In this document: piece after piece, positions 37,494 through 42,957 of the stretch
Layout: the number at the start of each line of letters is the position of its first letter
Numbering within the stretch: position 1 is the stretch's first letter
NCBI RefSeq assembly: GCF_000313565.1
Contig: NZ_HE578925.1
Location: forward strand, 1 to 64,000
Length of the DNA: 64,000 nt
Reading direction: 5' to 3'
DNA from: Dielma fastidiosa
GTDB taxonomy: Bacteria > Bacillota_I > Bacilli_A > Erysipelotrichales > Erysipelotrichaceae
The notes under the pieces: model-generated
Seen by the model: only the letters and a program-made list of their open reading frames with translations
What the model was told of the DNA's origin: nothing
Databases searched by the model: none
Position numbers and translations under genes: made by a program

Positions 37494-37754
37494 ATAAAAA
37501 AAGCCCAGTCTTATCAAAAAGACGGAGCTTAACACCGCGGTACCACTTTTCTTGATATCAAATTGATATCCTCTCAGCCAGTTTCAAACAAAACTGTTCT
37601 TCAATAACGGGAAGTCCCGACTTCCTTACTCGTTGCCTTTCAGGTTGCAGCTAACGGGCGAGAGCTGGATGTACATGGTACTGCTTCACATCAGCCAGCA
37701 GCTTTCTGTATCCGTTTTCCATCAGCATTTCCCGATCATCGCTTTTTATTTGAT
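37494..37754 (-). promoter_or_regulatory. T-box leader of the leucine operon
   Basis: On the minus strand the T-box sequence AGTGGTACCGCGG (37534-37547) is followed by a terminator hairpin AAGCTC.GTCTT/AAGAC.GGGCTT and T7 ending at 37494. A stem I pattern CAGAAAGC...GATGTGAAGC is present. CTC at 37665-37663 (in CCAGCTCTCG) is a candidate leucine specifier, which fits the leu genes; the specifier loop was placed by eye. Confidence 0.9.
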
Positions 37755-37830: not shown

Positions 37831-38610
37831 TCAATACTCCTTGATGACTCTGATCCAGCAAGTAGTTTTCTTTGGCGGATCATTTTCTTCCACCATAGTT
37901 TTCTTTTCATAAGTGACAGATTTAGGTGACCCTGATTCATGGATGGCTTTGTTTAAAGAACGCTGCCCTGAGTTATTGCTTACATCAATGCCGCATTGCC
38001 AATCAATATTGCCATTATCATACATATCAGCTTCATGAATACAGTCATACTCATCACTGTCACTTTGGACATTGGTAAAATTAGCTTCGGATTGTGAAAT
38101 ATTAGCTTCAATTTCATCATCCATTTGCTGCATCTGTGACTTTTTCACTGGCGTTGGCTGACGTTTTGTGCATGTATCATAATTTGAGCAATCTTTACAG
38201 AATTCATCTTCACTGACCATCTCATCATAAGGATCATCAAAATTTGCACAGAGTGAGTCATCAAATAGATCATAAGGACTTTGATCATCCTCTTTCCAGA
38301 CATGCTGATCCCCGTATTCCTTGATTCTTTCCTTTACCTTATCGAAAGTATCTTCCTCATGATCAATTAAATCATAAGGACTGCGGTCTTGTTCATGCCA
38401 TACTGCGGTTTCATTTTGATCATCATTGACTGAATCCATCGTAGCTTCTTCACCGTCTGCTTCCATCAAATCATAAGGACTGATGTCTTCTTCGCGCCAC
38501 ACCGGCTTTGTCTGAATGGATGGATCTTTTACTTCTTCATCAAGAAATGGCTTAAATTCTTCTTCAAAGTTTAGCTGATCATTATCCAGATCCACATAAA
38601 TTTTATCCAT
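37831..38610 (-). CDS. Acidic protein with three VWxExDxSPYDL repeats
   Basis: A 259-residue, very acidic, apparently disordered protein with no membrane segment. Three near-identical motifs VW[RHK]E..D.SPYDL occur at residues 37-48, 70-81 and 104-115, spaced 33-34 residues. A Cys cluster CKDC..YDTC (138, 141, 147) follows and may bind a metal. The C-terminus turns basic (PPKKTTCWIRVIKEY). No family recognised. AAAGGAG precedes ATG 38610; eight upstream codons lack a site. It is transcribed away from the adjacent membrane-anchored gene. Confidence 0.6.
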   Translation of the reverse strand: MDKIYVDLDNDQLNFEEEFKPFLDEEVKDPSIQTKPVWREEDISPYDLMEADGEEATMDSVNDDQNETAVWHEQDRSPYDLIDHEEDTFDKVKERIKEYGDQHVWKEDDQSPYDLFDDSLCANFDDPYDEMVSEDEFCKDCSNYDTCTKRQPTPVKKSQMQQMDDEIEANISQSEANFTNVQSDSDEYDCIHEADMYDNGNIDWQCGIDVSNNSGQRSLNKAIHESGSPKSVTYEKKTMVEENDPPKKTTCWIRVIKEY

Positions 38611-38823
38611 AACATTCTCCTTTCTTCTACCCATACTATGTAGAAGTAGGCATTTGGTTCATCCTCACTTCATTCTTATTAAGAAATATTTGCTGGCGTA
38701 ATGGGTCTGATAAGAAAAAAATGATATAATTAATTTATAGAAGAAACAAAAATGATATGCGCATGGAAATAAAGCAGCTTTAAGATTGATAGGTTTGAAT
38801 AATTAAAAATTGGAGGGCTTTTT

Positions 38824-40274
38824 ATGAGTAAAGAAAAGAAAAAAATAACCATGTGAACCGTACGCTGGCAATTATCATTATTGCTTCATTTTGTCTGCTT
38901 ATTTTAGCATTTGGTATGAGTCATCCACGAAAGCGTGAAATTCCGGTACTAGAAGATGGCGGCAGTATTTTTATGTCCTATGACGGCCCGGTTTTTCCTT
39001 TGACAAGCAGTGAGGCAGTGCCGGGGATTGAAGTAGTTCGTGAAATTGAATTTGATTTGTCTGATTATGACGTTTCATACGGTTATCGAGGTCTGCGGCA
39101 AAGTAAGATTCATGATTGTTATGTTTTGATGAATACCACAACGGAAGATAAAACGTTTACAGCACTCTATCCATATGTTTCTTCGTTTGATTCTAAGCTA
39201 AATCCAATCATTACAGTGAATGGTAATGAAGCAGAAACAAGGCTGCATAGTGGTATGTATAGCGGTGATTTCAGTGGTGCAGGAAGTAATACAGAAAGCT
39301 TGAATCTAAACGAAATATCCTCATGGGAGGGTTATCAAGCACTGCTTGCTGATGATGCCTATATAGAAGCAGCCTTCAGTGACTATCCAACACTGGATGA
39401 ACCGGTATATGTTTATGAATTCAGTGAGATTAGCGATGGCGGCTCGGATGCCGCTGCTCCAACATTAAGCATAGAATTTTCAATGGATTATAATCAAACA
39501 GCAGTTTTTACTTATGGTTTTAATGGTGGCAGGTTTGAGCCTGAAAATAATTACTCACAGCGCAGTTTCTTCATTCCTGCCAAGGGTGACTATGATTATG
39601 GAATGTTAAGAATGTTGATTGTAATGGGTGATGATATTGCAGCTTATGATATACAGGGCTATCAAAATGGCGGCTGTAAACCCGGCGAGGAAATTGAAGG
39701 AGCAGAAGCTGTCATCAGACGTTATGAAACAACACTAGGTGATATACTGAAAACGATTACCACTGCTCATTATGAACAAAGTATCAGGACTACGGCTGTT
39801 GATGAAGTGGCTCCCTTGATAGCTGGTGGAATTAGTGAAGAAATGTTTTATGGTGAATTATGTCGTGTGTTTAAGCAATATAGTATCATTGGCAATGATA
39901 CAAAAGAAAGGTATCAGACTGGCATGATAGAGGATTTGCTTAGTGATGTTGAGTTTTATAAACGCATTCTGTATGAGGCTTTTGAAATAACTATTCCAGC
40001 GGGTGAGAGTATTAGCGTTGAAGTGGAATTTAAGAAACGTGGAAGCTTTGATTTTGGTGGTACAGGCGGCAGGAATTTCGGTGTTACCGGTTATGATTTT
40101 GTCACTCAACTAGGCTCAGTTCTAAGCTTTAAGGAACAGTCATTGGTATTGAGTAATGATAATGGAATTGAAATTGTAAAACAAAATGTGGGCATTGATC
40201 CTGTTCAAAATCATGCTGAGCTTGATTTAAATGTTGAACACTATTATCTTGAAGTGCGATCAACTGACAAATAG
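38824..40274 (+). CDS. Membrane-anchored extracytoplasmic protein with a one-base frameshift at an A7 tract
   Basis: The main frame encodes 473 residues from GTG 38853: an N-terminal membrane helix (about 4-20) and a large outside domain rich in beta strands, no family recognised. GTG 38853 has no ribosome site. The strong site GGAGGG with ATG 38824 lies 29 bases upstream, in another frame, and reads only ten codons. One extra A in the A7 run at 38839-38845 would join them into a protein starting MSKEKKKNNHVNRTLAI, a normal basic N-terminus. So this is a sequencing error, a phase-variable tract or slippage-dependent expression. Confidence 0.6.
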
Positions 40275-42270: not shown

Positions 42271-42957
42271 ATGACTAAAATTCTTGTTTATGATCAAGAT
42301 AAGAATCTGATGTATAACTTTAATAAGAATGAAGATGATCCAATGCCATATTCTTATGGACGAACCTTGTTAGTCCGTGAATTCCGCGGTTCTTCAAGAG
42401 CGAATGTTTTATGGACGACAACAAGAGCGATGGAAGCATGGAATGACACCCGCCGAACTTATGGCTCAGGGATTCCAGTCGGTTATGCTTTTAAGCGTAT
42501 TTGGGAGGGCGGTCACGGCCAGCAAAGTCAGCATTACGCTGGTGTATCTTTTGATGTCGGTCAGCGGCTGACTGCGGCTCAGCGACGTCAGATTCATCAG
42601 ATTGCCACTAATCTGGGAGTATGGGGTTATGTTGAACCTTTATCAATGACACCGACTTGGGTGCATATGGACCGCCGTTACATTGGCGCGGCCTGTGGTG
42701 GTACTGCTGGCTTTCCAACCTTAAGAAGCGGTAATTCTTCAACCTATGTTTTAGTGCTTCAGGATGCACTGAATGCGTTAGGCTACGGTACTTCTTATTT
42801 GGACGGTATCTTTGGCCCGGCAACCAGAAGCGCATTGGTCACATATCAGCGTAATAATGGTTTAAGTGCTGACGGCATCTGCGGATGTGCGACTTGGCGT
42901 AAAATTGTTGCCATGGTTGTTGGGATTGGCAGAACGCCATCCGTTATAGATTACTAA
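42271..42957 (+). CDS. M15-type peptidase with C-terminal peptidoglycan-binding domain
   Basis: A 228-residue protein. Residues about 60-135 resemble VanY/M15 DD- or LD-peptidases with the zinc ligands in SQHYAGVSFDVG and the WVHMD segment. Residues about 150-215 are a PG_binding_1 repeat (LRSGNSSTYVLVLQDALNALG ... LDGIFGPATRSALVTYQ). No signal peptide or membrane anchor is visible, unusual for a wall enzyme; it could leave the cell by lysis, a holin, or act in a developing spore or be of phage origin. CAGGAGG precedes ATG 42271. Confidence 0.75.
   Translation: MTKILVYDQDKNLMYNFNKNEDDPMPYSYGRTLLVREFRGSSRANVLWTTTRAMEAWNDTRRTYGSGIPVGYAFKRIWEGGHGQQSQHYAGVSFDVGQRLTAAQRRQIHQIATNLGVWGYVEPLSMTPTWVHMDRRYIGAACGGTAGFPTLRSGNSSTYVLVLQDALNALGYGTSYLDGIFGPATRSALVTYQRNNGLSADGICGCATWRKIVAMVVGIGRTPSVIDY

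Follow-up and report, generated by a model that had tools for sequence, protein, structure and literature searches.

The 64,000-nucleotide stretch of Dielma fastidiosa analysed here (the window, 40.4% GC) carries, among biosynthesis and housekeeping genes, a gene for an acidic protein in which a short motif containing SPYDL occurs three times. What kind of protein is this, and to which cellular process does it belong? The comparisons described below suggest that the SPYDL protein is probably made late in sporulation as a structural component of the spore coat or exosporium.

The SPYDL gene and its motif array

The gene and the three copies of its motif are located as follows.

37831-38610, minus strand: gene of the SPYDL protein, acidic and mostly disordered, 259 aa (translation of the open reading frame, composition, AlphaFold)
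38467-38502, minus strand: motif copy 1, VWREEDISPYDL, residues 37-48, the closest of the three to the single motif of the homologues
38368-38403, minus strand: motif copy 2, VWHEQDRSPYDL, residues 70-81 (translation, motif scan)
38266-38301, minus strand: motif copy 3, VWKEDDQSPYDL, residues 104-115 (translation, motif scan)

The likely start codon is the ATG at 38610, with an AGGAGA ribosome site just 5' of it, and the stop codon lies at 37831-37833. The 259 residues have a pI of 4.1 and a net charge of -44, and the top 19-residue mean hydropathy is -0.28, which leaves the protein without a membrane segment. Translation bears out an earlier note on this DNA, which had described an acidic reading frame with three SPYDL motifs at a period of 33-34 residues: the three copies of VW[RHK]ExDxSPYDL begin with VW at residues 37, 70 and 104, their SPYDL lies at residues 44, 77 and 111, and the two periods are 33 and 34 residues. 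When the protein was shuffled 20,000 times, any 5-mer present three times arose in 5 shuffles, and the actual motif exceeds five residues. Compared in pairs, the copies agree at 9 of 12 residues and, in the DNA, at 24-29 of 36 bases, and the 21-residue spacers between them match in register at 0-2 residues. Out of register, spacer pair 1-2 is alike beyond shuffles (4 of 2000 reach that level), and the likeness in the other two of the three spacer pairs is no better than in shuffles. Since the spacers have diverged and the motif has been kept, the repeated unit is the motif itself and not a longer segment.

The repeats are followed by the C-x2-C-x5-C cluster that had been reported (C138, C141 and C147). 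Of the 'basic tail' described beyond it, a short stretch with a net charge of +3 (residues 141-160) stands, whereas over its full length the C-terminal tail is roughly neutral.

Profile comparisons by hmmscan and hhalign place the protein in no known family, as the earlier note had stated; this holds for Pfam, NCBIfam, PHROGs and the PDB. No domain scored above its cut-off in hmmscan, and the sole Pfam match was to FYVE_2 (PF02318; 16.7 bits against a cut-off of 27.2, E 0.0086), a zinc finger identity that was rejected on that score. NCBIfam and the PDB sequences gave no match, and no PHROG profile matched at E <= 1. In the literature, no paper was found that pairs SPYDL with 'repeat', and the accessible part of PMC11536998 makes no mention of a protein of the SPYDL type.

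Homologues in Traorella

A degenerate DNA pattern (W, two acidic positions and PYDL) was scanned over 272 family genomes and matched two of them, the window's own genome, G000 (three times, all in the SPYDL gene), and G265. Thirteen viral loci matched by pattern encode unrelated proteins, many with PYDF in other contexts. Single-sequence scans of genome contigs and viral contigs found no relative, and a similar scan of 60 related genomes gave, beyond the protein's own genome, two marginal matches (L002, E 0.0046; L003, E 0.034). A C-terminal profile, A2, was built from G000 and G265, and its search over 266 family genomes returned four clear matches, namely the two profile members, G264 (E 1.2e-12) and G266 (E 3.1e-10). 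The next best match had an E of 0.005 and some match at E <= 1 occurred in 94 genomes; with the exception of the four, and perhaps of G151, these are taken for noise. The full profile, A3, found the same four among 294 genomes of the order, with no fifth at E <= 0.01, and its scan of genome contigs identified the three homologues as belonging to Traorella massiliensis and two uncultured Traorella. Two of the five Traorella genomes in the sample, G267 (83% complete) and G268 (79% complete), have no clear match. Neither the pattern scan of 272 genomes nor the C-terminal profile search of 266 found a paralogue or a second motif-bearing protein.

The three Traorella homologues (L051, L052 and L053; 120 aa in T. 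massiliensis and up to 180 aa) carry one W-x3-DISPYD[LF] motif each and the same C-terminus; the motif is kept outside the window's species, as a single copy. All four proteins share the start M[ED]K[VI]Y, W-x3-DISPYD[LF], DMYxNxN, one invariant Cys (C206 in the window protein) and a C-terminus of the form E-x2-T-x2-EE-x2-P-x3-TT-x-W-x-R-x2-K-x-Y (alignment, n=4). A conserved block was recognized in the alignment with the three homologues.

37993-38028, minus strand: conserved block DMYDNGNIDWQC, residues 195-206

The homologues differ from the window protein in having one motif instead of three, in their shorter length, in the absence of the C-x2-C-x5-C cluster and, in one of them, in a GN-rich tract. 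The protein of G265 has 180 aa, contains WSDNDISPYDL and ends much like the window protein; a long GNGNGN/GNGNGS tract precedes its conserved hairpin tail (L005, 1044-1589, minus strand). Gly-Asn-rich tracts are usual for spore-surface proteins. A Pfam search with one homologue gave matches on GN-rich or acidic tracts, all of them under the cut-off.

Predicted structure

AlphaFold2, run on the four-sequence alignment, returned a mean pLDDT of 49, with values below 50 in 178 of the 259 residues. The sole confident part of the model is a hairpin at the C-terminus.

37834-37923, minus strand: conserved C-terminal beta-hairpin, residues 230-259, strands 231-241 and 248-258 (alignment, AlphaFold)

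A Foldseek comparison of this mostly low-confidence model with PDB folds found none at E <= 0.001. The low pLDDT, the conserved motif and the diverged spacers support the view that the protein is disordered and repeats a motif of the docking type. Because the hairpin tail is well conserved and is the only confidently folded part, it is likely to be an anchor, and the motif is likely to be a docking peptide because it alone has been kept between diverged spacers and varies in copy number.

A promoter-like element of the sigma-K form

A promoter-like element precedes the SPYDL gene at a position that is conserved in the homologues.

38633-38658, minus strand: sigma-K-form element ACC-N15-CATAGTAT, 22 nt 5' of the start codon (18-21 nt in the three homologues)

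GAACC-N15-CATAG[TA]AT lies 18-22 nt before the start of all four genes. The available portion of a study of C. difficile describes sigma-E and sigma-K sites with very similar -10 elements and a -35 element that is ATA for sigma-E and AC for sigma-K (PMC3789822). By sequence match, all four genes have a putative late mother-cell (sigma-E/K) promoter of the form AC-N16-CATAnnnT in this place, compared with 0.14% of random window positions. A looser form, AC-N16-[CA]ATAnnnT, which was chosen after the sequences were seen, occurs at 18-22 nt in eight of nine genes (the four SPYDL genes and five genes, described below, that adjoin a peptidoglycan-binding gene), against 0.34% of positions and none of the 56 window ORFs of at least 150 aa; the exception is the gene of G151. 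Since that adjacency partly decided which nine genes were taken, independent evidence on sporulation comes from the four SPYDL genes alone. Directly 5' of the SPYDL gene there is no conspicuous sigma-70-like promoter.

The tight pattern was rejected as a regulon marker, having no excess over the control: the genome as a whole shows no enrichment of GAACC-N15-CATANNNT (3 matches in G000 versus 7 for the reversed control), and ACC-N15-CATANNNT is no commoner in the window than chance (2 found versus 1.95 expected). The argument rests on the conserved position in the homologues, two of which (G264 and G266) are closely alike.

Sporulation genes in the carrier genomes

SpoIVA_ATPase scores over its cut-off in 36 of the 266 family genomes, and these include all four carriers of the SPYDL gene (hypergeometric probability 0.0003, with kinship ignored). 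Sigma-E/K-type sigma genes are likewise present in all four. In G000, the sigK model finds two strong genes of this type (266.6 and 247.6 bits), both below the cut-off of 298.65, as is the B. subtilis control. One of the two is located some 4.4 kb upstream of another sigma gene, in agreement with the sigE-sigG gene order. The SPYDL family changes fast, and all genomes in which it was found here have sporulation genes. The part of the D. fastidiosa description available to us gives a genome of 3.57 Mb with 40.0% GC and calls the species non-sporulating (PMC3746426).

The conserved neighbour

The earlier note had tentatively linked the SPYDL gene to the divergent membrane gene at 38.8 kb. This link fails, because the membrane gene is absent from all Traorella genomes with a SPYDL homologue; it occurs in 4 of the 266 family genomes (G000, G243, G077 and G110), none of them Traorella, and co-occurs with the SPYDL gene in G000 only. 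At the two homologue loci that were read at length (L051 and L053) the neighbours are other genes. The conserved neighbour is instead a gene for a protein with a peptidoglycan-binding domain, PGB.

42271-42957, plus strand: PGB, conserved linked gene with a PG_binding_1 domain (family survey)

PGB is named after this domain, which gives no identity for the N-terminal part of the protein, and AlphaFold yields a mean pLDDT of 32 (three-row alignment, one row lacking the first two residues). It is a sporulation-linked gene, nearly confined to SpoIVA-bearing genomes of the family: 34 of the 266 genomes have it and 31 of these have SpoIVA, the others (G144, G240 and G263) being 66-89% complete. It was found in 3 of 285 genomes drawn from the phylum, all three Erysipelotrichaceae, although the family's share of the 285 is not given. 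Distant second copies occur in several genomes, and in G010 PGB-like genes lie in tandem (L071, 1501-2842, plus strand), the second having diverged to 33% identity with the window's PGB.

G265 has its SPYDL gene immediately beside PGB, in divergent orientation. The same slot is occupied in G151, G242, G244, G029 and G020 by a gene for an acidic, Cys-rich protein of 114-196 aa with a similar tail; apart from these five and G265, the 30 PGB loci surveyed (flanks <= 1.5 kb) show no hairpin-tailed protein. These five proteins (L061, L062, L065, L067 and L068) resemble the SPYDL protein in size and acidity, mostly end in IR[IV]xK-x-[YF] as its tail does (L068 differs), and have the loose promoter form in four of five cases. 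They carry no SPYDL motif, and the likeness is too weak to prove common descent: hhalign aligns their tails with the SPYDL tail at a probability of 42.9% and an E of 2.5e-4, a weak similarity that is suggestive of related tails.

Other features were observed near the SPYDL gene. In the membrane gene (38823-40274, plus strand), the frame from the ATG at 38823 passes an A7 tract and is closed by a stop near 38855. A GTG at 38853 opens the long frame, an arrangement that might reflect slippage, an error or a GTG start. On the other side, a T-box leader (37515-37748, minus strand; RF00230, 94.3 bits) lies between the SPYDL gene and a leuA-like gene, with a sigma-70-like site beside it at 37789-37761, and the leu/ilvE genes seem to be transcribed from a promoter of their own.

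A probable spore-layer protein and its alternatives

The 'scaffold or adaptor' of the earlier note can now be narrowed to a spore-layer protein. Mother-cell synthesis would proceed from the sigma-K-type promoter, and the product, with no membrane segment, would stay soluble until its conserved C-terminal beta-hairpin joined it to the spore surface. The flexible acidic chain would then be exposed, its W-x3-D-x-SPYD[LF] peptides could dock on another coat protein, and Cys and Tyr residues might be cross-linked. The docking peptide would have been amplified to three copies in the window's species, compared with one in its relatives. Pattern and profile scans of the family genomes found no docking partner.

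The same promoter and SpoIVA co-occurrence would also suit a non-structural adaptor that acts at sporulation, a soluble mother-cell protein that delivers clients such as PGB to the forespore without becoming a permanent part of the coat. The multiple motif copies and the linkage to PGB are in keeping with such a role, but in many family genomes no hairpin-tailed protein was detected within 1.5 kb of PGB, so that PGB seems not to need one, and the high Cys content of the proteins adjacent to PGB suggests a cross-linked structure; we regard this adaptor as unlikely. Less likely still is a role in vegetative cells, as a disordered metal-binding or regulatory protein whose Cys cluster would hold a metal. 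The C-x2-C-x5-C of the window protein and the weak FYVE zinc-finger match speak for it; nevertheless, the match falls far under its cut-off, the homologues do not have the cluster, and it is the sigma-K form that is conserved upstream, with no sigma-70-like promoter standing out. The lack of a curated family would further agree with a hypothetical gene derived from a phage or another element and having no role in the cell, which we consider very improbable given that there is no PHROG match, that the viral-contig searches gave no relative, that biosynthesis and housekeeping genes surround the locus, and that the promoter and both protein ends are conserved.

If the SPYDL protein is a coat or exosporium component, its motif may, quite tentatively, dock on a coat-assembly hub that only Traorella and its relative possess, with a tuned copy number and a motif valency that sets the build-up of the spore layer. 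Were this true, the window's gut species, with its SpoIVA and sporulation-type sigma genes, could form spores. To our knowledge, little has been established about coat and exosporium proteins in the large gut family Erysipelotrichaceae, for which the Bacillus and Clostridioides proteins are a poor guide because coats evolve fast. The SPYDL family, its peptide and the linked PGB would offer concrete markers for spore-forming Erysipelotrichaceae, and the protein itself would allow the role of motif valency in the assembly of spore layers to be tested on a small example.

Comparison with known coat and exosporium proteins

The known proteins that the SPYDL protein most calls to mind are coat and exosporium proteins of Bacillus and Clostridioides that are repetitive or rich in cysteine, such as CotG, CdeC and CdeM. 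Comparison by way of the family and PDB libraries shows no sequence similarity between them, and we know of no protein of the CotG, CdeC or CdeM type that carries W-x3-D-x-SPYD[LF] or the hairpin of the SPYDL protein. The general make-up is nonetheless shared, as these coat and exosporium proteins are low in complexity, disordered, rapidly evolving, restricted to lineages and Cys-bearing, as is the SPYDL protein, and their late expression in the mother cell is what the promoter element would predict for it as well. The SPYDL protein is new in its sequence and ordinary in its kind.
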